DNA of 31,962 nt, taken from a virus. This document shows, piece after piece, positions 3 through 21,997 of this stretch. The notes below the pieces were generated by a model. The model had not been told where the DNA came from, ran no database searches, and saw nothing but the letters and a program-made list of their open reading frames with translations. Position 1 is the stretch's first letter. Each line of letters opens with the position of its first letter. The stretch spans positions 1-31,962 of the IMG/VR virus record IMGVR_UViG_3300020471_000265, one strand, 5' to 3'. The position numbers were made by a program, and so were the translations under genes.

Positions 3-905
3 GGATCACCAGAAACAGAAGGCGATGCGATTACAGCAGAAGCAGTAGTCTATGAAATCGACTTTGGTGATGTAGACAAAGAAGGAAACAAGAAAAAGCG
101 AAATCTGACAGAACAGCAGATTAAAGCTACCTTCGACAGATATTCTGCAATGAATTACAAGAACGCACAGTATAAGCCTGTGCAAGACGTGATTGAGCAG
201 ATCGCCAAACAAAACCCAGGTATGGATATGAATACCATGGCGCAAGAGATGATTAACATCTACAACGCCCAGGTATCTAATCCGACTATGGGCAACACCC
301 AAGGCGATGCATCTGGTAAAGATCAGACAGGTGCTCCACCTGAAAGCCTCGCAGGTATGCTAGGTAAATGGGAAGAAGAAAACGCAGTTTCTCTTCCTCC
401 TGGTTACAAAGACATGCTTACTCGCGGCGCAGGTGAGATGGAATTTATGAAGCAGGAGTTAGCTCAGACGAAGAGAGCACTTCAGCAAGTTCTAGCACAA
501 TCACAAGGCGTAGCAGACGCAGCCAAGAACCAAGTCCAGAACAGTAACAAGGACAAAGTGACTGCTGTGCGTCAGCAAATTGCTAACAACCTCGACAGGA
601 CACAGCAGGCATTAGGTTTGCCAGACGACAAGGCAGACGACTTTATGACCTTCTTTGCCGAGCGAGGATTTACACAAGAAGACTTTATTGATCCTCAGCT
701 AACCCTAAAGGTTATGCAGGATTTTAAGAACAATATGGATAGCCCAGAAATGGAGCGTATGCGTGGCATCGCCCAAAGAAGGCAATCATATACAGGTTCT
801 TTAGGATCAACACCGTCGGCTGGTGGTATGGATACTCAGCAACAAGGCGACTCTACATTTGATAAGATGTCTGCCGCTATAATGAGTAAGAAAGGAATTG
901 GATAA
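3..905 (+). CDS. Probable capsid scaffolding protein (5' truncated)
   Basis: The reading frame is open from the window edge, so the true start lies upstream and about 300 residues are visible; the ATG at 150 is internal. The protein is Gln-, Lys-, Asp- and Glu-rich, has no hydrophobic segment, and contains helical coiled-coil-like stretches around the sequence MEFMKQELAQTKRALQQ. It ends in a low-complexity Gly/Ser/Gln tail followed by a short helical end. Composition and position directly upstream of the major capsid gene are what is expected of a scaffold, which guides procapsid assembly and then leaves. The assignment rests on context and composition, not on a conserved motif. The next gene, the PqqA-like peptide, starts 15 bases after the stop. 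Confidence 0.65.
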   Translation, partial: GSPETEGDAITAEAVVYEIDFGDVDKEGNKKKRNLTEQQIKATFDRYSAMNYKNAQYKPVQDVIEQIAKQNPGMDMNTMAQEMINIYNAQVSNPTMGNTQGDASGKDQTGAPPESLAGMLGKWEEENAVSLPPGYKDMLTRGAGEMEFMKQELAQTKRALQQVLAQSQGVADAAKNQVQNSNKDKVTAVRQQIANNLDRTQQALGLPDDKADDFMTFFAERGFTQEDFIDPQLTLKVMQDFKNNMDSPEMERMRGIAQRRQSYTGSLGSTPSAGGMDTQQQGDSTFDKMSAAIMSKKGIG

Positions 906-920
906 AACAGGAGGTACGTT

Positions 921-995
921 ATGAAATGGTCTAAGCCAACATACGAAAACATTCGTCTTGGATTTGAGATCACGATGTATGTGAAATCCTTATAA
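921..995 (+). CDS. pqqA: PqqA-like precursor peptide of PQQ biosynthesis (24 aa)
   Basis: This 24-codon frame follows a perfect Shine-Dalgarno sequence (AGGAGGT, 909-915) by five bases. The peptide begins MKWSKP and contains RLGFEITMY. It matches the PqqA pattern of the families I remember: W3, K5-P6, R12, G14-F15, E16, T18 and Y20. In known PqqA, PqqD presents the peptide to the radical SAM enzyme PqqE, which links the Glu to the Tyr three residues later; these become the PQQ skeleton. E16 and Y20 have exactly that spacing. The C-terminus (VKSL) lacks the final Arg common in gamma/betaproteobacterial PqqA. No pqqB, C, D, E or F is in the window, so any PQQ made would need host enzymes. It sits between scaffold and capsid genes and is followed by a strong terminator. 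It is below the length limit of many gene callers. Confidence 0.85.
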   Translation: MKWSKPTYENIRLGFEITMYVKSL

Positions 996-1012: not shown

Positions 1013-1065
1013 CCCCTTTGAGGTGATAGCTTGAATCACTCCCACCTCTTAGGGGATTTTTTTTT
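1013..1065 (+). terminator. Rho-independent terminator after pqqA-like gene
   Basis: A 5' arm CCCCTTTGAGGTG (1013-1025) pairs with CACCTCTTAGGGG (1043-1055), leaving a two-base internal mismatch. Inside it a smaller stem GTGAT/ATCAC can form. A run of nine T follows (1057-1065). It would end transcripts carrying scaffold and the PqqA-like gene before the capsid gene. Confidence 0.85.
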
Positions 1066-1226: not shown

Positions 1227-2414
1227 ATGGCAGCTATTCAAGGATTGCGGGGAACAGGCGAGTTCACGACTGATTTCCGCCCGAAAAACTATCGAGAGCT
1301 TTTTACGCTCTTGGAACCAAATGGTAATGCGCCTCTAAACGCATTGCTTGCTATGGGATCATCAGAAGGTACAGATGACCCAGAGTACAAAAACTTTAGA
1401 GACGAGCTTCCTGATCGTAAGTTGAAGGTCAATGGTGCTGTATCGTCTACTTCGACGACCACTGTTACTATTGATGCATCTGACGACAATAAGTTCGCAA
1501 TCACTGGTGCTATTGTTGTGAACAGTGAAACAGGCGAAGTAATGCATGTTACTGCCGACACCACTGCAACAACTTTAACAGTAGCTAGAAACATTGGTGG
1601 CACTTCCCACCAGATTGCAGATAACGCTGAACTCTTCATCGCTGGCTTTGCGGCGGCTGAAGGTGGAAATGCGCCTACTGCTATCAGTTTCGACGCAACT
1701 GTTGCAAGCAACTATACGCAAATCTTTAGGACTGCGTTCCAAGTATCAAATACTTTGAACTCAACCTACCTGCGTACAGGTGACAAAATGGATGAGGCTA
1801 TGACTAAGGCTCTCAAACTCCACATGTCAGACATCGAAAGAGCTATGTTCTTTGGTGTTAAGCATGAAGAGAATGGGTCTTCTGCACAGCCAACCCGTTT
1901 CACTGGTGGTTTGTTAAACAGTCTTACTAATGTTGTAGACGTTACGACAGACTTTGCCTCATACGGTGGTTCTACTGCTGGTCAAATGACTGAAGCAGGC
2001 TTTGATAGCCTACTGATTTCATCCGTATTCAAATACGGTTCCAAGCAGAAGATCGCTTTTGTTGGTGAAACTGTTGCTAACCAACTTCAACAGATCGGTA
2101 AGGATCGTTGGAAGCCAACAACTTACGAAGGTGCATACGGAGTTAATTTAACTCAGTACACCACTTTCGCAGGGGACTTAATGGTTCACTTGCATCCTCA
2201 GTTCAGACAAATTCCGAACATGAAGAACGCAATGATTATCGTTGATTTCCCATATCTGAGCTATCGCTACCTTGAAGGTAGGGACACTCAGTTGTTGGAG
2301 AACAGACAAGCACCTGATGCAGATAGCATCAAGTCAGAATATCTGACTGAGTGTGGCTTGGAACTTCTTCAAGACAAGGTACATTCATATATCAAGAACT
2401 GGTCTTCTCGATAA
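1227..2414 (+). CDS. Major capsid protein
   Basis: The protein is 395 residues long if it starts at the ATG at 1227, which has AGGAG eight bases upstream. An earlier in-frame TTG at 1158 adds 23 unlikely residues and lacks a ribosome binding site. The sequence resembles the DUF5309/SU10-type major capsid family (HK97 fold): an N-terminal arm, a beta-rich Thr/Val insertion with alternating residues at about 80-140, the segment FRTAFQVSNTLN, and a C-terminal region with YLEGRDTQLLENRQA. It forms the icosahedral shell. Scaffold upstream and connector downstream agree, and terminators on both sides suggest it is expressed as its own strong unit. The family name is from memory; the role is secure from position and sequence. 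Confidence 0.88.
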   Translation: MAAIQGLRGTGEFTTDFRPKNYRELFTLLEPNGNAPLNALLAMGSSEGTDDPEYKNFRDELPDRKLKVNGAVSSTSTTTVTIDASDDNKFAITGAIVVNSETGEVMHVTADTTATTLTVARNIGGTSHQIADNAELFIAGFAAAEGGNAPTAISFDATVASNYTQIFRTAFQVSNTLNSTYLRTGDKMDEAMTKALKLHMSDIERAMFFGVKHEENGSSAQPTRFTGGLLNSLTNVVDVTTDFASYGGSTAGQMTEAGFDSLLISSVFKYGSKQKIAFVGETVANQLQQIGKDRWKPTTYEGAYGVNLTQYTTFAGDLMVHLHPQFRQIPNMKNAMIIVDFPYLSYRYLEGRDTQLLENRQAPDADSIKSEYLTECGLELLQDKVHSYIKNWSSR

Positions 2415-6371: not shown

Positions 6372-6857
6372 ATGAAAACAAGAATGGCAACTCCTGAAGA
6401 CATCCCTATCGGAATAGCGATGTCCAGAATTTTCTACGAAGAAGGTGACTTCGAGGGTGGAATATTCGAACCAGAGGTAGCTGAAAAATTTGCATTAGAC
6501 GTTATGGAAAGCCCGCAAGGGTTTTGTTGCGTTGCGGAAGACGATGATGGAAACATCAGAGGTATGCACCTGGGCGGTATCGTTCAGCACATGTTTGGCT
6601 CTAGTGGCCAAGCAATTAGCTACATCTTCTTTGTTGAGCCAAGCTCAAGAGGAGGAACCGCAGGGCGACAAATGGTAAAGAGATTTGAGAAATGGGCTCT
6701 AGGAAAAGGGGTATTGGATGTCTTGGCAGGCAACGACTCTGGAATAGAGATAGAGCGCACTAAAGGTTTTTACGAAGCACTAGGTTACAAAGTTGTAGGT
6801 TATCAGTTCAAAAAATTGCTGACCGAAGATACAGAAAAGGAGAATGAAAATGGGTAG
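6372..6857 (+). CDS. GNAT-family N-acetyltransferase
   Basis: This 161-residue protein has the GNAT fold order. It opens with MKTRMATPEDIPIGIAMSR, then beta strands around GFCCVAEDDDGNIRGMHLGG. The acetyl-CoA pyrophosphate-binding motif A is at 89-102 (EPSSRGGTAGRQMV). A final FYEALGYKVVGYQFKK is the common GNAT C-terminal strand. It would move acetyl from acetyl-CoA to an amine, but the substrate is unknown. It is embedded between the tail fibre and ejection-protein genes and overlaps the next by eight bases, so it is expressed late with structural genes. It may modify virion or host proteins; nothing in the sequence decides this. Confidence 0.85.
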   Translation: MKTRMATPEDIPIGIAMSRIFYEEGDFEGGIFEPEVAEKFALDVMESPQGFCCVAEDDDGNIRGMHLGGIVQHMFGSSGQAISYIFFVEPSSRGGTAGRQMVKRFEKWALGKGVLDVLAGNDSGIEIERTKGFYEALGYKVVGYQFKKLLTEDTEKENENG

Positions 6858-12415: not shown

Positions 12416-15400
12416 ATGTCTGATAAATATGGATACAAGTCTGTACTGCCCTCGGCGCAATCATCATCGCCATTTGATACAGATTACCTTGATGATATTG
12501 ATGGCAAAACTGCCCTTCAAGACCCTAGAGTTCTAAACGACCTAAGAAAGTATTATTACGAGCTAGGACACGACACCACCCAGATGTCTGACGAAGACTT
12601 GGTGGATGAGTTCTACTCAGATAAGACGTGGGGTCTGCTTAATACAATATCAGCAGGTAAACGTGCCTACGAGACTATGACCGCATCTCCTGAGCAACAG
12701 GAACGTATGCGTCGTCTTGATGGATTGTACGAAAAACTCCCTAGCTTCTGGCAAGAAGGTGGTCGAGGCGCAATGTCTGCTATCGCAGACGGAACACTCG
12801 CTGTTATTGCCGACCCAATTAACTTAATCCCTGGTGGTAAAGCTCTGCAAGCTGGTGCTAACGCAGCAAGAATAGGCGGTAAGTCTATTGGTCTTGGAAG
12901 AGCAGGTTGGGAAGGAGCTAAGACAGGTGCTAAATACGAAGCTGGTATAGGTGCTGCACAGAATACTTTAATGGGTGTGGCTGACCAGACAAGAGACATT
13001 AATCTTGGATACCGTGATGAATATTCTCAACTTGGATTACTGGGCGATGCCACTGTTGGCGGTGTTGTGGGTGGTGCTGTTGGTGCTGGCATTGGTGCTG
13101 GCGCAGGTATGTACGGTAGGCGTACAGGTCTTCAGCAACGTATGGGCGCACGTTACCTCGGCAAGACGGAAGACGAAATAGCAGAAATGACCTTCCGCGA
13201 AGCGGAAGAAATGAAAAAGAAAGCTGGATTTGACCCAGAAACAGGTACGTTCAGGGGAGAAAAAGGATCAGAAAAGACTCCAGAAGAGGTAGATGAAGCA
13301 CCTTTGTCTGCTGAGGAGACACTTAGCCCAGACGAATTAAAAATTATCGAGAATGAAGCTGCCCTGGATGCAGAGATCAGGGCTCTCGAAGAGGCTGAGA
13401 CAAGCGCAAGAGTTGACGAGCTTGATGATGAAGTAATTCTTGATCTGCAAGATCGTATTACCAAGCTAAACGAAATCAAAAACTTTGGTCGTCGTCTTCA
13501 GACAGAAAAAGAAGAGATCGACGAGTTAATATCTAACGTCGGAGCAGATAACGCAGAGGCTATAAAGCGTAGAGACGCTTTCACAAAAGCCGCATCAGAC
13601 TACAGATATGCAATAGCTAACATTGACGACAGTGAAAAACTCACTGCGGCTGTTGATCGTATTATTGAGGGTCTTAAAAGACCAGATGTAGACGCGGAAG
13701 CACCAGAAGCTCCCACAGCACCAGAGGCTACTGGCGGTGAACCACCAGCAGGAGCCGCTGCCGCCCCAGAACCTACAGTAAAGACCGAAACTCCAACGCT
13801 AGAAGAACCAGTTGCAGGGGGAGATACTACGCCTGTTACACCGTCTGATGCTCCCCCTGTGCCAGAGGTTCAGACAGAAGTAGCTATTCCTTATAGAAAC
13901 AAAAATCAGGAAACACAGATCAAGACAATTCTCAGTGACAACGGTCTTACTGAGTCTGACCTTGATGCAATACTTAGGAATCCAGATAACGACGTTGTTA
14001 TTACTAGCAAGGACGGCAAGCTCACACAGAAAAACATTCAGCAGCTAAAGGATAATATAGCTTTAAAGCAGGCTGACAGTGATGCTCCTCCCCAGCTAGA
14101 CACAACACCACCTGAAGCACCAAAGTTAAAGTCGGAGCTTCGTGGTCTTGCAATAGCCAATGGCGTTGATCCCAAGACATTAACACCCAGTGGACGTGCT
14201 AAGTCCATAAGTAAGGCTCGTGTCCAAAAAGCTATAGACGAGGCCGAGGGTGAGTCGGAATATACTTCCCAGGTTAAAACTGAACTAGACGAAATCCTAG
14301 ATTTAATAGGCCCAGACGAAACAGACCCAACGGTTGTTCAAAGGGCAATCAGGTCTATGGCAAGTGCATCTGGCTACAAAAGTGATGCCGATGATTTAAT
14401 TGCTTTGTATGACCATGGCTACTCAAGTGTTGTTCGTAACGAGAGTATTGTTAAACCTCTCACCAAGACAGAACAGAAGAAAATAAAAACCTTAGCCCGT
14501 GCTATGAAGAAGCGTCCAGAGTTCGCAGAAACTCCCATGGACGTTATGGAAACACTAGCAAGACAAGAGATCATTGCACAAAGGTCGATAGACAAGACAC
14601 CTGTGCGTGGCACAGGTGAGGCTATTGCAGACGCATCAAAGTTTACGACTGCTGGAAGATCGGCGTCTACTGGAAAAATCCAAGGGTTCCTCAAGCGAGG
14701 CACTAGGATTAAGAAAGGCTCAGACTACACACTAACTGATGGTGTGAAAGTAGGACGAGCACAGTTTGGTTTTGAAGCTGCACTTATCAAGGCGCGATCT
14801 GGCGGTGTTGATATTGTTGAATACATAACACTTGGCCCAGAAAAGATTATGACCAGAAATGGTTATGTTGATGTGCCAAAAGGAACCGTTGCGTTTGCCG
14901 ATGGCGTGTCTGGCAGGCCGTTTGACAGCATGGAGTTTGCTCTTGAGTTCAGGAATGGTGGCAAGCCTAAGAGGGCTGTGGCCGCTCAAGCTGCTGAAGT
15001 TCCAGTAAGTAGAGGTGCAGAAGAGGCAGAAGGTCTTACTAACCCTGACGCCATTAATCTAGCCGACTTACTAGAGAAATTTGGCGATGATCCTGAGACT
15101 CTTGTAAGAGTTTTAAAAGAAAGAGCTAGAACAGACAATACTCCAGCCAAGCCTAAACAGGAGATGCTTCCTGTTCAGCGTGGTAATAAGTATTTAATCA
15201 TTCGAAACAAAGAAAACCCTACAGATGTAAGGCTTATTGGGCGTTCGCAGATTGCTGCTGGTGCAGATATGTCTGCTCTTCTTGGTAAGAATGGCGATCC
15301 AGCTAAGTGGGAAGCTAGGTATCTCCCTGAAGAAAACTACACCCAGAGAAAAACCAAACTACAACAGCTATTCGATCAGCTTCCTGAAGAACCTGAAGGT

Positions 15401-18400
15401 ACAGTAGCGGGAACTCGTCTTGAGGTTGGAAATCAATCTGGCCGAGGAGATCCAATAGCCTTCGAAGATATGGCTGATGTCAGGATAGACGCAGACAAAC
15501 TACAAGACGAAAGAATTGTAGAGGCGTTTGGTTATGTTAGGCGACCGATTACAAAAAATACATCGTTAATGGATGTGTATAAAGTTGCTCGCCAGCTAGA
15601 CATGAGCACAAACTGGTTTAGAAACGGCGAGTATGCAGACGCACACATCAAAAGGCTAGAGGCTATCTATTCCTACATTGATGAGGTGGCCCCAAACGGA
15701 TTTATCAATAACCAGACAACTAGGGCTCAATCTGTTGCAGATGTTAGGGATGTATTCTCTAAGTATTCTAAAGAAGAGATTGAGAACGCTGTTGATTTTA
15801 TTGAGAGGTTGGGTGGCGATCAAACCATTGGCCCGAAATTCAGAGAAAGTATTAGTGGTAACTACCAAGAAACTAATTTCAAAAAAGATGGTGGTATATC
15901 TCAGCAAATTAAACTTGATGGACGCTCTGGATCATTTACTGACAGGACAACTACTCTTTATCATGAGGTAGCTCACTGGGCTTACGAACACATTCTTACT
16001 CCTAGAGATAAGTTAGAGTTCTGGCGCAGTATGAACAAATACTACGATCCTAAAACTGGAGCGTTAGATTTTGAAAGGCTGAAAACTGGTGTCTCTATAT
16101 ACGGTAGAGGCGGCGATAGGATGCCTGGAATTGCAGACGAAATAGTTGAAGTAGAAGGTGCTGCACGTGGTGATGGTTCTCTAATTGTTAATTCATTAGA
16201 CAGCCCACAAGAGTTCTTCGCTCAACAGTTTGAGGTATGGGCTACTCGACAAAGAAACATTGGTAACGATAGTTTCTGGTTAAAGATTACCAAGTACGTC
16301 AAAGGCATTATCAACAGGTATGCCCGTGATGTTGAGATTGATCCAGACCTAGAACATCTCTTTGCCAAGATATTGCCAGACGACCAGCGAGCTAAGTTTA
16401 AGCTAGGTGATGCTACTGATGCTAAGTCAAAACGTGGCCCACATATTATACGTCGGGCAGACGAGCTTAAATATATAAGACGAGAACTCGAAGACGCAAT
16501 AGATCGAGACAGTGCAAGCGGAATTGTAAATGCAACCCGTGAACTCCTTGGTTATATGCTTTCTGTTGCGCCTCGATATTCAAAAGGTAAGCGAGCAGAC
16601 CTAGCCAAGAAAAAACTCAAGGCATCTTCAACTTTCAGTCCGTTTAACGGCATGAAAGGAAAGATACACAACCGCATCGACGAGTTATCTGGGATATTAG
16701 CTATCAACAGAAACTCCTTAGATGGCCTATCACCAGAGTCAGAAGGCATTGGTTCGTCTTACTGGGATGATGGTTTGTCTGAGGGTCTCGATGAGCAAGC
16801 TGCTGCCGACAAAATCATGGAGATATTTGCTCGTGGTGGTCTTGGAGACGAGGCTATTCCTCTCAACAATACGCTGGATGAAATGTACCAGGCACTTGAG
16901 ACTGCTTTTCAGGTTGCTGAAGGCGGGGCTATGCGGGGTTCTAAGCCAAATGTCACTGGCACTAACCCTAAAAGACCTACAAGAAGTAAGGCGGCTAAGA
17001 AAGCCAAGACGAGAAAAGCTAGAGAAGAAGCCGCGCTTGATGGTGATGCAGCACAAACAGCAAGAACTACGCCAAACAAGCGTAAGCGTGTAACTCGTGA
17101 TGACAATAAAGGTCTCGATCCAGACAGTGTAGGAAGCATACAAGACTTACCAATTACAGAATTGCGTAAGTTGTATGTTAAACACAGAGGCACTGATATG
17201 GGCGATCAGATCGCCATCCAGTTGCTACGCAAAGAAAAGTCAAAACCCCTCAAGTCAAGACTTGTTCCTGTTCCTAAATCTATAGGTCAAGCAGGTAAAG
17301 CAGACTTAGAGAATGGTTATCTTGATGCCTTAGAAAGTGGAAACCCAGAGTTAATAACTCAGTATATATCTGAGCTTAACAGGAGAGCACTCAACAAAGG
17401 CAAAAAGAGAGGCGATCCTACAAAGGTTCAGCCTAAATACCTGTCTTCCAAAGTAATCGAGCAAGAAGTCAGAGACATGGTTGGTCTTGCATCTAGCGAT
17501 GGAATACCTCCCTCTGCTCGTGCTGGAATACGTGACCTGTTGAGTTTCATTACTCATCGTGATCCAGAGGTACAAAACACCTCTCGTGTGATGACGTACA
17601 GGATGCTCAACCTACTCAACAAGACGACACGAGACTCTCTTGGCGAGACGAATATATTATCTGCCGATGATTTAGCCAGGGTAGCTAATGTCCAGCCTAG
17701 TGAAGTTGGCACGTCTGTCTTTGTTGATGTCAGAGGCCCAGAGTTTAAGAAGTACCGATCAGATATACGTCGTATGTCTATTGGTCTTACAAAAGGTAAG
17801 TCCTCTCCTTTCGATCTCATGCATGAGATAGGTCACATGGTTGTTAGGTCTGGTGTCTTGGAGCCAGGTGAGCGTGACGCAATCGTTGAGGCTTACACAC
17901 GAGCTAACAACAAGACGAAAGACCGTATCGAGAAGTTATATGCAGGGAAATATGCAGACCGTACAGACGAAGCAAGAGAAGACCTGTTAGCACAGGAGTG
18001 GTTCTCTGAGTCTTTGGCTGAGTACATGGCAGAACGTGTAGCAAAAGGCGACATATTAAAAGCCTCTACCACGGGAGATGTTTCATCTCTCAGGATGATG
18101 AACACATTCGAGCGAACGCTGGACAAGATGCTTGAGTATGTTGCTTACATGGTCAATGGACTGATCGGAAGGAATGATATTAAGCAGCAATTCAGGCGTC
18201 TTGTTCTCTTCGGAGATATGTTTGAGAAGCCAAGACCAAACGCCTTAGCTGATGTCGTGCGATCTGGCCCAGCAATACACCCAGACCTTGCCGCTGATGC
18301 TGTAAATGACTACATAATGGCGTCTCCTCGTGCCAAACGAGAGAAGATGCTTGAGTTTGTAGAGAATGGACTGAGCAGAAGTGGGGACGAAGTTGTTCCG

Positions 18401-21400
18401 TTCTATCACGGCACACCAAACGGGTATGCATTTAACAGAGCAGACAACCCTAATGTCGTCATGAGACCCAGTGCTAGAGGTTTCTATGGGCCAGCAACAT
18501 ACTTAACAGACAGCCCAGGAGCCGCATCTCAGACGTATGCCAAGAAGCCAACACCTGAGTCCATAAGGAATCAGATCATGGACTTGGATGTGGCAGACGA
18601 TGTGAAAGAAGAGCTTCTTTACGATGCTTATGAGTTGCATGATGTTAGGAAACAAATATCAGCAAAACGTCGTGACTATTACATCGCTAATGCTGGTGAA
18701 GAGGCCGACACTGTAAACACACTGAAGGATGAGCTTGATGAACTTGTTGACATGGAACAGTCACTTCTTGACAACTTGTCAACACAGGGTGTCAAAACCG
18801 ATCCCCTTGTAGTTCCTGTGCTTGTGAGGGTTCGCAACCCAATTAACTTTAGACATAACGCTAGTTATGAGTCTATAAATGATCCTGCTCTGAGAAGTAT
18901 CGTTGACTACTTCAATATGACAGACACACTCAACCTCAAGGCAATGCAGAGATTTGCGGCAGCTTTTGAAGCTGGCCCAGTGACAGGTAGAGACACCTAC
19001 CTTGGTCTTGTTCGCATGCTCCAAGATTCTGGTCGTGGCAAGTTAGCCGCTCAAGCAGAATTAAATGAAGCGTTAGATGATCTTGGCTATGACGGGATGC
19101 TAACGACTCACTACAACACCTTGGACTCAGTTGGTGCTGACTCAAGGATGTTAAACGGTGAGACTTATGAGGGTGAGCAGATGCCTCATATGGGTTTACT
19201 TGTCTTTGATAGCCAAAACATCAAGCACGTAGACGCAAACGAGTTCGACTCGTCTGATCCTCGTCTCTATCATCGTCTTGAAGAAGGCTCGATGAAGTCA
19301 GGTACGCTTGGTGCTGTTGTTAGATCAATGGCAGACGAGCAAATAGACAGCGTTGCCGATCTCAATATGGGTGCTGTTGGTGAGGTGCTTGAAGAATCTC
19401 AGGTAGAAAGATCACTAACATCAGCCATCATGTCTATGGGTCGAAGACGACCTGCTACTGATGCTGAAGTTAAAGCACTTCGCAAGCATGGCCCTCTTGG
19501 ATGGTTCTCAGAAACATCGAAACGCCTGAAGGATATGGGCGCACACTGGTATGGAGATTGGTTTAAGAACCACTTCCCAGACGTACACCAGACGTTTGCC
19601 AAGAAATACTTCCCACTGTACGACGCAATGAAGTCATTACCAGACGCACAGGGTTGGGTTGGTAGCTGGGTTCAACGTGGGCCAGTAGCTCTTGGACGTG
19701 CTGTAACTGGAAAGTCTCCTAATCAACCTAAGAGCTATACACGAATTGTGTCTGCTTTAAGGCGAGGAGATAAATCAAGACAATACGCGGCTCTCAGTGA
19801 CAAAGAGAAAGCAGTGTACTCCAAGATAAGAAATGCTCTTGATGCTGAATGGTCTGAGATGTCTGCACAAGGCATCATGGTTGGACGTAGAGCAAACTAC
19901 TTGCCACAAGTCTGGAATAGAGACGCCATCAACTCAAACAGAGATGAGTTTCTAAACGCCATGGCTAACTTCTATATCAGAGAGGGAGATCGAAACGGTA
20001 TCCCTGCTAGAACTAAAGAAGAAGCAAGCAAGTTCGCTGACTCCATGTATTACAAACTGGCCGCAGACGATGCTGATGGTGTGTTTATCCCAGAAGCAGG
20101 AGGTTCACGTAATGCAACGTCAGATCATATTGATTTTACTCGTATGCTTGATCTTGAAAACGACCCTTATAGTCTTAATGAGCTAGAGAAATTCTTAGAG
20201 GGAGACCTCCAGAACCTCCTTGTTAAATACTTCGAGGGTACATCAAGACGACTTATCCAGACGAAACACTTTGGTAATAACGTACATGGTTTCCACGATT
20301 ACATTAAAGCTGCGAGCCAGGGAACACGTGGTATTGCTGATCTCTTGTCATCAAACAAGATATTCAGGAAAGACTTCGACACCCTGAACAGTGCAGGAGA
20401 AGTAGAAACTGTTGAGGTTATTGATACAGTCGCTATGCCTTTCTCTGGAGCAAGAGATAACTCAGCTAATGAGTTCTCAGAAAACCTACTTAATGTATTC
20501 AAGTCCAGTGGTGAGGCTGCTGCAAGACAACTTCTTAAAGATATAGCTCCAACAGGTGCGGGCGGAAGAGTTCCGCAAGCATATGAAAGACGAGTAGATG
20601 CAATCGTCGCCGCCCTTAAAGATTACAAGGGTGAGTCAGTAGATTGGGATCAAAGCCAGTACTACATGATGATGAACTCTATGCGTCTGGCACTCAAGAA
20701 GCCTATGAATGGTGTCGGTGGTAAGCGAGTAAACGAAATCACCAAAGCTATCAAAGGATTTAACAGTGTAACTCTACTTGGTTGGACAACTCTAACATCT
20801 CTTGGCGACCCTGCCCTTACCCTAATCCGATCTGGCTCTTTCCAAGATTGGTACAAAGGTATGAAGACAGCCGCCCTTGATGAAGATTACAGAAAGATGA
20901 TCCATGACGTAGGTGTTGCGATTGAAAACATCGTACATGAGCGTCAGATTTATATGTATGGAGCATCTAACTCCAAGCTAACTAACGCATTTTTTAACGC
21001 GACTATGCTGACGCCATGGACAGACATGAATAGGCAAGCCGCTGGTGCAGTTGGTTATGAGTCTTTCAAGACAATGCAACGCAAGGCTAACAACTTCTAC
21101 CGAAGGGGTGTGCCTATTGCGGAGCAAAGCCGAGACTACAAGAAGGCACATAGATATTTAATGTCTTATGGTCTTGGTGAGTTCTTACCTACTGGTGATC
21201 GACACAAAGAAAGACTGTCAAACATGAAACTGCTGAGTGAAGACGATGCAGTTCGTCGTGCGGTCATTCAGTTCGCTGACCAATCTATCTTCCAGCCGAA
21301 TCCAAATGACATACCTATGTGGGCTCAGACACCTATAGCCTCCCTGGTATTCCAGTTGAAGAGCTTCCCACTGATGATGACTCGTCTTGGAAAGTACACG

Positions 21401-21997
21401 CTGGACGAAATGTTTGGTGATATGGAGACAGGAAAGCTAACAGTTAATCCAAAACGCATGAACAGAAATGCTTGGCCATTATTGTATATGGCATCAGCAG
21501 GCCCACTGTTCGGCGGTATGGCTCTCACAGCGAAAGACTTCTCTCAAATGAGAGGTGGCGACACTGGTGAAGAGATGGATATTCGTAACCGTAATATTCT
21601 CAAGACCCTTGGGTATAACGAGAAAATACACGGCAACGAAAATGATTTCGCTGGATGGTATGTAGAAGGGATGATGCAAATGGGTGGCCTCGGATTATTC
21701 GGGGATGTCTTGCACTCTGTAGCAACACAAGCAGACAACGGAGCTTACGGCGAGCAACGCATAACAAGCGCATTGCTTGGCCCATCATACGGCCTCTTGT
21801 CTGGCGGGGTTAGAACCTTCGCTGGTGCTAAGGATTGGGCATTGGATTCTACGCCTAGCAACGCGAAAGAAAGACAAGCTGCTAGAGAAGTTCTCGGCAG
21901 AGTTCCTGTATTTGGTGGCATCAGGTCACTCAAAGAGGCTGCGGTGGATTTCGTCGCAGGTGAATCAAGTAAAGAAAAGAAGGAGTGGTGGGAATAA
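12416..21997 (+). CDS. Giant polyvalent ejection protein: two HExxH domains plus ART-like domain
   Basis: The 3193-residue protein occupies the slot of the largest podophage ejection protein. Features in order: Gly-rich hydrophobic segments (about 115-165 and 208-235); charged helices (245-420); a Pro/Ala linker (425-490); a metallopeptidase-like site HEVAH (1183-1187) with E1266-FFAQ as likely third ligand; a Lys/Arg-rich linker (about 1520-1560); a second site HEIGH (1803-1807) with E1861-WFSE; and an ADP-ribosyltransferase-like domain starting FYHGT (1996-2000), with YLTDSP and later LGYDG and LLVFDSQNIK (2261-2270). The C-terminal 850 residues have hydrophobic stretches near 2783, 3019 and 3085, probably for membrane passage. 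Such fused 'polyvalent' proteins are known to enter hosts with the DNA and act early. I saw no lysozyme or transglycosylase motif. Confidence 0.82.
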   Translation: MSDKYGYKSVLPSAQSSSPFDTDYLDDIDGKTALQDPRVLNDLRKYYYELGHDTTQMSDEDLVDEFYSDKTWGLLNTISAGKRAYETMTASPEQQERMRRLDGLYEKLPSFWQEGGRGAMSAIADGTLAVIADPINLIPGGKALQAGANAARIGGKSIGLGRAGWEGAKTGAKYEAGIGAAQNTLMGVADQTRDINLGYRDEYSQLGLLGDATVGGVVGGAVGAGIGAGAGMYGRRTGLQQRMGARYLGKTEDEIAEMTFREAEEMKKKAGFDPETGTFRGEKGSEKTPEEVDEAPLSAEETLSPDELKIIENEAALDAEIRALEEAETSARVDELDDEVILDLQDRITKLNEIKNFGRRLQTEKEEIDELISNVGADNAEAIKRRDAFTKAASDYRYAIANIDDSEKLTAAVDRIIEGLKRPDVDAEAPEAPTAPEATGGEPPAGAAAAPEPTVKTETPTLEEPVAGGDTTPVTPSDAPPVPEVQTEVAIPYRNKNQETQIKTILSDNGLTESDLDAILRNPDNDVVITSKDGKLTQKNIQQLKDNIALKQADSDAPPQLDTTPPEAPKLKSELRGLAIANGVDPKTLTPSGRAKSISKARVQKAIDEAEGESEYTSQVKTELDEILDLIGPDETDPTVVQRAIRSMASASGYKSDADDLIALYDHGYSSVVRNESIVKPLTKTEQKKIKTLARAMKKRPEFAETPMDVMETLARQEIIAQRSIDKTPVRGTGEAIADASKFTTAGRSASTGKIQGFLKRGTRIKKGSDYTLTDGVKVGRAQFGFEAALIKARSGGVDIVEYITLGPEKIMTRNGYVDVPKGTVAFADGVSGRPFDSMEFALEFRNGGKPKRAVAAQAAEVPVSRGAEEAEGLTNPDAINLADLLEKFGDDPETLVRVLKERARTDNTPAKPKQEMLPVQRGNKYLIIRNKENPTDVRLIGRSQIAAGADMSALLGKNGDPAKWEARYLPEENYTQRKTKLQQLFDQLPEEPEGTVAGTRLEVGNQSGRGDPIAFEDMADVRIDADKLQDERIVEAFGYVRRPITKNTSLMDVYKVARQLDMSTNWFRNGEYADAHIKRLEAIYSYIDEVAPNGFINNQTTRAQSVADVRDVFSKYSKEEIENAVDFIERLGGDQTIGPKFRESISGNYQETNFKKDGGISQQIKLDGRSGSFTDRTTTLYHEVAHWAYEHILTPRDKLEFWRSMNKYYDPKTGALDFERLKTGVSIYGRGGDRMPGIADEIVEVEGAARGDGSLIVNSLDSPQEFFAQQFEVWATRQRNIGNDSFWLKITKYVKGIINRYARDVEIDPDLEHLFAKILPDDQRAKFKLGDATDAKSKRGPHIIRRADELKYIRRELEDAIDRDSASGIVNATRELLGYMLSVAPRYSKGKRADLAKKKLKASSTFSPFNGMKGKIHNRIDELSGILAINRNSLDGLSPESEGIGSSYWDDGLSEGLDEQAAADKIMEIFARGGLGDEAIPLNNTLDEMYQALETAFQVAEGGAMRGSKPNVTGTNPKRPTRSKAAKKAKTRKAREEAALDGDAAQTARTTPNKRKRVTRDDNKGLDPDSVGSIQDLPITELRKLYVKHRGTDMGDQIAIQLLRKEKSKPLKSRLVPVPKSIGQAGKADLENGYLDALESGNPELITQYISELNRRALNKGKKRGDPTKVQPKYLSSKVIEQEVRDMVGLASSDGIPPSARAGIRDLLSFITHRDPEVQNTSRVMTYRMLNLLNKTTRDSLGETNILSADDLARVANVQPSEVGTSVFVDVRGPEFKKYRSDIRRMSIGLTKGKSSPFDLMHEIGHMVVRSGVLEPGERDAIVEAYTRANNKTKDRIEKLYAGKYADRTDEAREDLLAQEWFSESLAEYMAERVAKGDILKASTTGDVSSLRMMNTFERTLDKMLEYVAYMVNGLIGRNDIKQQFRRLVLFGDMFEKPRPNALADVVRSGPAIHPDLAADAVNDYIMASPRAKREKMLEFVENGLSRSGDEVVPFYHGTPNGYAFNRADNPNVVMRPSARGFYGPATYLTDSPGAASQTYAKKPTPESIRNQIMDLDVADDVKEELLYDAYELHDVRKQISAKRRDYYIANAGEEADTVNTLKDELDELVDMEQSLLDNLSTQGVKTDPLVVPVLVRVRNPINFRHNASYESINDPALRSIVDYFNMTDTLNLKAMQRFAAAFEAGPVTGRDTYLGLVRMLQDSGRGKLAAQAELNEALDDLGYDGMLTTHYNTLDSVGADSRMLNGETYEGEQMPHMGLLVFDSQNIKHVDANEFDSSDPRLYHRLEEGSMKSGTLGAVVRSMADEQIDSVADLNMGAVGEVLEESQVERSLTSAIMSMGRRRPATDAEVKALRKHGPLGWFSETSKRLKDMGAHWYGDWFKNHFPDVHQTFAKKYFPLYDAMKSLPDAQGWVGSWVQRGPVALGRAVTGKSPNQPKSYTRIVSALRRGDKSRQYAALSDKEKAVYSKIRNALDAEWSEMSAQGIMVGRRANYLPQVWNRDAINSNRDEFLNAMANFYIREGDRNGIPARTKEEASKFADSMYYKLAADDADGVFIPEAGGSRNATSDHIDFTRMLDLENDPYSLNELEKFLEGDLQNLLVKYFEGTSRRLIQTKHFGNNVHGFHDYIKAASQGTRGIADLLSSNKIFRKDFDTLNSAGEVETVEVIDTVAMPFSGARDNSANEFSENLLNVFKSSGEAAARQLLKDIAPTGAGGRVPQAYERRVDAIVAALKDYKGESVDWDQSQYYMMMNSMRLALKKPMNGVGGKRVNEITKAIKGFNSVTLLGWTTLTSLGDPALTLIRSGSFQDWYKGMKTAALDEDYRKMIHDVGVAIENIVHERQIYMYGASNSKLTNAFFNATMLTPWTDMNRQAAGAVGYESFKTMQRKANNFYRRGVPIAEQSRDYKKAHRYLMSYGLGEFLPTGDRHKERLSNMKLLSEDDAVRRAVIQFADQSIFQPNPNDIPMWAQTPIASLVFQLKSFPLMMTRLGKYTLDEMFGDMETGKLTVNPKRMNRNAWPLLYMASAGPLFGGMALTAKDFSQMRGGDTGEEMDIRNRNILKTLGYNEKIHGNENDFAGWYVEGMMQMGGLGLFGDVLHSVATQADNGAYGEQRITSALLGPSYGLLSGGVRTFAGAKDWALDSTPSNAKERQAAREVLGRVPVFGGIRSLKEAAVDFVAGESSKEKKEWWE

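Follow-up and report, generated by a model that had tools for sequence, protein, structure and literature searches.

Why would a phage carry a gene for the precursor peptide of PQQ, and none of the enzymes that turn it into the cofactor? The question is raised by a 24-codon gene in a virus record of IMG/VR (IMGVR_UViG_3300020471_000265, positions 1 to 31,962), the full stretch of 31,962 nucleotides that we refer to as the window. The encoded peptide, MKWSKPTYENIRLGFEITMYVKSL, contains W3, K5-P6, R12, G14-F15-E16, T18 and Y20, with E16 and Y20 forming an E-x3-Y motif. Its scores passed the thresholds of both PqqA models, PF08042 (E=2.6e-9, 37.3 bits; gathering score 21.1) and the equivalog TIGR02107 (E=1.9e-11, 43.5 bits; cut-off 20), and it was the sole PqqA match in the record. 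Under a PqqA HMM built without the window sequence, the peptide scored 53.2 bits, whereas the top score of the same HMM across 1.28 Mb of dinucleotide-shuffled window was 13.6 bits, which excludes a chance match. The peptide is like bacterial PqqA in its length, its W-x-K-P leader, its R-x-G-F-E-x-T-M-Y core and its E16/Y20 pair, but its last four residues (VKSL) are variable and its gene lies in a phage head operon, unaccompanied by pqqB-E. PHROGs holds no family for these peptides. On sequence grounds, the window gene is a true PqqA. A preliminary description of this DNA had proposed a PqqA-like peptide with these residues, encoded by 24 codons behind an AGGAGGT and a five-base gap, inside a phage morphogenesis operon; each element is borne out by the sequence, the profile searches it called for, and the head genes on either side (Table 1).

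Table 1. Features surrounding pqqA in the window
Feature	Position	Strand	Basis and remarks
Scaffold-like head morphogenesis gene	150..905	+	Position before capsid gene, L432 homologue; start uncertain, frame open to contig end
Shine-Dalgarno AGGAGGT	909..915	+	Sequence; ATG at 921, gap 5 nt
pqqA, 24 aa; E16 and Y20 are the PqqE cross-link pair	921..995 (stop codon included)	+	PF08042, TIGR02107
Intrinsic terminator, stem-loop then T run	1013..1064	+	Directly 3' of pqqA; MFE -23.9 kcal/mol, z -3.9, then T9
Major capsid protein	1227..2414	+	phrog_1328 major head protein, E=4.1e-43; next gene downstream of pqqA

The surroundings of the gene indicate how it arrived. Pfam and PHROG searches of the scaffold-like gene gave no match, and a consensus terminator scanner did not list the stem-loop, which is nonetheless kept in aligned relatives that have no pqqA. 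The nearest annotated relative of the window by DNA is Roseobacter phage CRP-810, which has no pqqA anywhere. Among 80 capsid relatives (IMG/VR loci found by capsid similarity, with up to ~6 kb on each side), pqqA lay near the capsid gene in only one, the closest (L271, 91% capsid identity), and at the same spot. A third carrier of this type of insertion, L432, is a contig filed under a Euryarchaeota genome. When aligned, the three carriers read from the scaffold stop through the ribosome site and pqqA to the terminator, whereas relatives without pqqA pass from the scaffold stop directly to the terminator. This clean empty site shows that pqqA was inserted between the scaffold and capsid genes, as a unit of its own ribosome site and 24 codons placed ahead of a pre-existing terminator. 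Of the expression signals expected of a moron, an autonomous inserted phage gene, the window gene has its own ribosome site, and a search for a promoter of its own found none. The GC content of pqqA is 34.7% against 44.7% overall, and the window and L432 are 97% identical in pqqA against 60-66% in the scaffold gene, a similarity that points to recent exchange between phages. Hence, as is asked of auxiliary metabolic genes, pqqA sits in a genuine phage genome beside virion genes and has a cellular homologue, and the empty site and GC content indicate that it was acquired.

In the order of their capsid, stabilisation, fibre and GNAT genes, CRP-810-type marine phages (PMC11288001) match the window; they differ in that pqqA is absent from CRP-810 and, near the capsid gene, from 79 of the 80 capsid relatives sampled. 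Two further features of this genome type deserve mention. A single 3193-codon frame at 12416-21997 probably encodes a giant virion or DNA-ejection protein; its CRP-810 counterpart is annotated as a hypothetical protein of ~2,000 codons plus an 'internal virion protein D'. A likely GNAT acetyltransferase at 6372-6857 lies between fibre and internal virion genes, an unusual place for an enzyme, and shares this position with CRP-810 gp40.

The window is not alone. We searched 50,697 phage records by tblastn with three PqqA queries (the window peptide, a methylophage consensus and a canonical gammaproteobacterial sequence), and all three returned the same 12 records. Since the canonical query found the same set, a common gammaproteobacterial-type PqqA in other phages would have shown; an alphaproteobacterial-type query added nothing among the phage records. 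Nine of the 12 are phages isolated on methanol-oxidising Methylophilales (four Melnitz records, Venkman, MEP301, MEP401, MEP402 and P19250A). The others are a spring podovirus, ctXG6705, and two records of one bacterial contaminant, 'Acinetobacter phage MD-2021a' (L006 / CAKLQF020000010.1), which we rejected as a phage case: it contains ppk, fur and the complete pqqABCDE operon of a bacterial chromosome. All copies in the carrier phage records are intact, with start and ribosome site, yet in the annotation tables pqqA is absent or overlapped by a wrong-strand hypothetical gene. Between Venkman and ctXG6705, pqqA is the only common DNA in 8 kb, and the MEP402 stretch matches the Melnitz, Venkman, MEP301 and P19250A genomes solely in pqqA. 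With pqqA the main or only DNA shared by the compared pairs, the carrier phages are unrelated. These records show, at the level of sequence, an association of lone pqqA with methylotroph phages, the gene occurring in at least five separate lineages isolated on methanol-oxidising bacteria.

Environmental genomes extend this distribution widely. We scanned IMG/VR four times with degenerate DNA patterns, each scan matching between 107 and at least 120 loci; in two of these the pattern stopped at F15 and left out E16 and Y20, to avoid circularity. IMG/VR thereby adds at least ~300 carriers to the sequenced phage records, and at least 306 pqqA copies were extracted from phage loci, a total that covers the isolates, the window and three contigs assigned to genome bins. 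The matches listed comprise at least 87 strict context clusters, with at least 115 upstream and at least 130 downstream neighbour families. In several clusters pqqA adjoins a capsid gene, and these capsids fall into four further PHROG head families (371, 267, 138 and 334); pqqA lies beside a capsid gene in 41 of 70 cases against 13.7 expected, a figure we do not use as a statistic because the capsid queries were picked from its neighbours. Judged from these genomes, lone pqqA genes occur widely in phages and have almost no annotation.

Several candidates called for reclassification. Two loci that appeared to be fusions (L203 and L254) have an apparent GTG start in front of a terminase gene and no ATG, and were rejected as such. 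Hits labelled Euryarchaeota and Neomarinimicrobiota were rejected as bacterial, the former being a CRP-810-type phage and the latter a large phage contig; a genome-collection hit labelled Verrucomicrobiales was likewise not counted as bacterial. The first two (L432 in ARS60 and L400 in RS350) are phage contigs binned into unrelated genomes, where their pqqA would falsely credit those lineages with PQQ synthesis.

A separate observation concerns ~18 phage contigs of up to 340 kb, in which two secreted proteins with CxxCH haem motifs precede pqqA (L258:2540-5105, L400:4632-5930, and L194, L204, L221, L244, L248, L264, L268, L270 and L281). The two are 27% identical to one another, match cytochrome c weakly and fall into no named family; they resemble redox partners, and a connection with pqqA is possible. 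Close to pqqA in one of these, a marine large phage (L258:5788-7857), Pfam identifies a CHASE2 plus adenylate/guanylate cyclase protein, and a similar-looking protein is found at L483:11643-13652, in a T4-like contig that also carries a methanol dehydrogenase.

If the phage peptide is to become PQQ, the enzymes must come from somewhere. No PqqE above cut-off occurred in 49 true phage records, whereas the contaminant record, serving as a control, was positive; we saw no pqqB-E remnants in the phage loci read. The 32-kb window record itself has no PqqE and no PqqC, although for PqqC no control genome gave a match either; the earlier statement that the window lacks a partner pqq gene is thus borne out for PqqE and, weakly, for PqqC. 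A PQQ methanol dehydrogenase was found in one of 50 records, the T4-like contig just mentioned (IMGVR_UViG_3300025120_009955), with 607.9 bits (cut-off 480), followed by a formate dehydrogenase. The gene immediately after pqqA in this contig encodes a quinoprotein dehydrogenase-associated SoxYZ-like carrier (TIGR04557; 197.5 bits against a cut-off of 140), and exonuclease, minor-head and tail-fibre matches mark the contig as phage. Its methanol dehydrogenase, formate dehydrogenase alpha, pqqA and carrier together make up a small methanol-oxidation module (L483:1990-10787). A formate dehydrogenase raised the suspicion that contig L061 is host DNA, but its matches to exonuclease, minor-head, tail-fibre and curli proteins, together with RNR-like ORFs, led us to accept it as T4-like.

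We propose that the phage provides the consumed substrate and the host the enzymes, a reading to which we assign a probability of roughly 0.75. In the pathway, one PqqA is consumed per PQQ, while the enzymes turn over; supplying the peptide alone is therefore the cheapest way to sustain PQQ. Under this model, pqqA would have been picked up as single-gene cargo, a ribosome site and 24 codons, between the scaffold and capsid genes. Late in infection, transcription along with the head genes, followed by translation, would yield the peptide; host PqqD would bind the N-terminal leader of the phage peptide, host PqqE would cross-link Glu16 to Tyr20, and a host protease, PqqB and PqqC would complete PQQ. 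Host enzymes, being catalytic, could outlast host shut-off, so that the peptide would be the cheapest help a phage can give, and PQQ-dependent alcohol or methanol dehydrogenases would be kept supplied while virus is made. We infer that the phage gene is expressed, that host enzymes process its product and that the phage benefits.

Work on bacteria bears on this scheme. The Glu16-Tyr20 chemistry and the binding of the leader by PqqD have been described (PMC10906245), and cell extract makes PQQ from PqqA supplied to it (PMC9851590). In Gluconobacter, overexpression of single pqq genes is cited as raising PQQ, with pqqA second only to pqqB (cited in PMC7936290). One methylotroph has five pqqA copies, three of them alone (PMC9851590); like the phage gene, these are lone genes adding substrate for one enzyme set, but they are chromosomal and host-regulated.

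The preliminary description had likewise read the peptide as feeding a host PqqB-E pathway, and the matches to PqqA models, the constancy of E16/Y20 described below and the lack of a phage PqqE support that. So do the distribution of the gene, in phages of methanol oxidisers and one other carrier, and the PQQ-enzymology neighbours in the T4-like contig. Phage pqqA probably keeps cofactor production going during infection of methanol-oxidising bacteria.

The two residues joined by PqqE allow this reading to be set against its rivals. The F15-ending patterns matched 107 and at least 120 IMG/VR loci, giving 108 and at least 139 copies. E16 and Y20 are kept in 108 of 108 and 139 of 139 copies listed (247 in total), with the stop following within a few codons, and T18 is likewise invariant. 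The underlying codons vary: Y20 is TAT in 80 and TAC in 31 cases in one set and TAT in 62 and TAC in 77 in the other, T18 uses all four of its codons, and between the window and L271 the E16 and Y20 codons both differ synonymously. The tails vary too, with 30 different ones in the first F15-pattern set. Invariant residues amid varying codons and tails indicate strong purifying selection on the PqqE-joined pair, the outcome for which the preliminary description had proposed a test across relatives. In the leader, predicted to bind PqqD, W3 and P6 occur in 305 of 305 copies and K5 in 226, positions partly required by the patterns.

These counts bear on a decoy, in which the peptide would occupy PqqD/PqqE (or PqqB/PqqC) and shut down PQQ synthesis in the infected cell. 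Conservation of the PqqD-binding W-x-K-P leader region and the lack of an encoded biosynthetic partner would suit such a role. But binding alone needs neither chemistry residue, and in a decoy their loss or replacement would be expected, whereas both are invariant in 247 copies drawn by patterns requiring neither; one phage contig, moreover, adds a PQQ dehydrogenase and a quinoprotein-associated carrier, the opposite of pathway shutdown. The decoy, raised earlier as the alternative to precursor supply, is for these reasons improbable.

We attach a similarly low probability to a PqqA-derived signal or RiPP with a non-PQQ product, or a structural or regulatory peptide acting, for example, in anti-defence or lysis timing. 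A 2024 study described a bacterial PqqA-annotated RiPP family co-expressed with defence systems (PMC11118758), and the very many phage contexts of pqqA could accord with a role of this kind. The phage sequences, however, stay within the bacterial PqqA equivalog, and the carriers of known host among sequenced phage records are all phages of methanol oxidisers.

Neutral hitch-hiking of functionless host pqq operon fragments is very unlikely. The gene is short and easily carried, and its presence is patchy within one phage family, as such a process might produce. Against it, pN/pS is ~0.13 within types (a value partly forced by the search patterns), E16, T18 and Y20 are invariant in the unforced samples, the ribosome site and start are intact in nearly every copy, the loci read hold no remnants of the remaining operon, and the many neighbour families indicate that the gene was taken up repeatedly. 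Bacterial contamination or host DNA in viral contigs, of which the chromosomal pqqABCDE fragment under an 'Acinetobacter phage' name is a real instance, is most improbable, given complete cultured-phage genomes that carry pqqA, its place between scaffold and capsid genes in the window lineage and the absence of PqqE from the 49 other records.

Substrate supply requires a host that makes PQQ. The bacterial PqqA nearest to that of the window belongs to marine, Pseudohongiella-like Gammaproteobacteria; the bacteria with the nearest PqqA also carry PqqE, in one case as pqqA-B-D-E, and PqqA occurs in only ~20% of the genomes sampled in the Pseudohongiella-like order. Known hosts of the CRP-810-type phage family are mostly alphaproteobacterial (PMC11288001), and the nearest isolate, CRP-810, infects a CHUG roseobacter, without pqqA, whereas the window PqqA resembles the marine gammaproteobacterial type. 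A search of 274 gammaproteobacterial genomes for prophages with a related capsid turned up two matches, both distant (33% and 28%), which did not reveal the host. A pattern search for methylophage-type PqqA in 369 genomes of the class found none, and thus no PqqA of the Methylophilales hosts themselves.

A viral PqqA has been reported before, a possibility for which the preliminary description had allowed. In Lake Baikal, Coutinho et al. (2020) found PqqA with methanol dehydrogenase in one T4-like virus population, VP_266, with a predicted Methylophilaceae host, and likewise read it as boosting PQQ for methanol dehydrogenase (PMC7678222). That report concerns one metagenomic population, and does not extend to breadth, cultured methylophages, recurrence in unrelated phages or insertion at an empty site. 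The viral genes that a 2026 survey reports from reservoir sediment include pqqA, pqqD and pqqE (PMC13188868). Descriptions of MEP301, MEP401/402, Venkman, Melnitz and CRP-810 make no mention of pqqA in their main text. Measured against open-access full texts, what is new is how widely the gene occurs, its recurrence in phages unrelated to one another, the conservation of the cross-link pair in samples not selected for it, the insertion at an empty site, the passage of the gene from phage to phage and its link with methylotroph phages.

The length of the gene probably explains why it has gone unseen. Prodigal, the usual gene caller, has a 90-nt minimum, and lone pqqA falls below this standard gene-calling length. 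Like the auxiliary metabolic genes psbA, phoH and mazG, pqqA comes from host metabolism and is retained by selection in lytic phages; it differs in yielding a consumed RiPP precursor and not an enzyme, from only 72-75 nt. Auxiliary metabolic genes are usually enzymes; here the phage would bring only the stoichiometric part of a pathway, encoded in 24 codons, while the catalysts would be those of the host.

Taken together, we consider it fairly likely that this is a general viral strategy, in which unrelated phages independently acquire and exchange a lone pqqA and thereby sustain PQQ-dependent, largely methanol, oxidation in infected aquatic bacteria, some adding a quinoprotein module (methanol dehydrogenase, SoxYZ-like carrier). 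Every methylophage record touched by our searches carries the gene, and Venkman, Melnitz, MEP301, MEP401/402 and P19250A offer existing culture systems for testing. In uncultured phages, pqqA may mark a PQQ-dependent host. With hundreds of environmental phage carriers, methanol oxidation in lakes and oceans may be under viral influence by way of a gene invisible to annotation pipelines.
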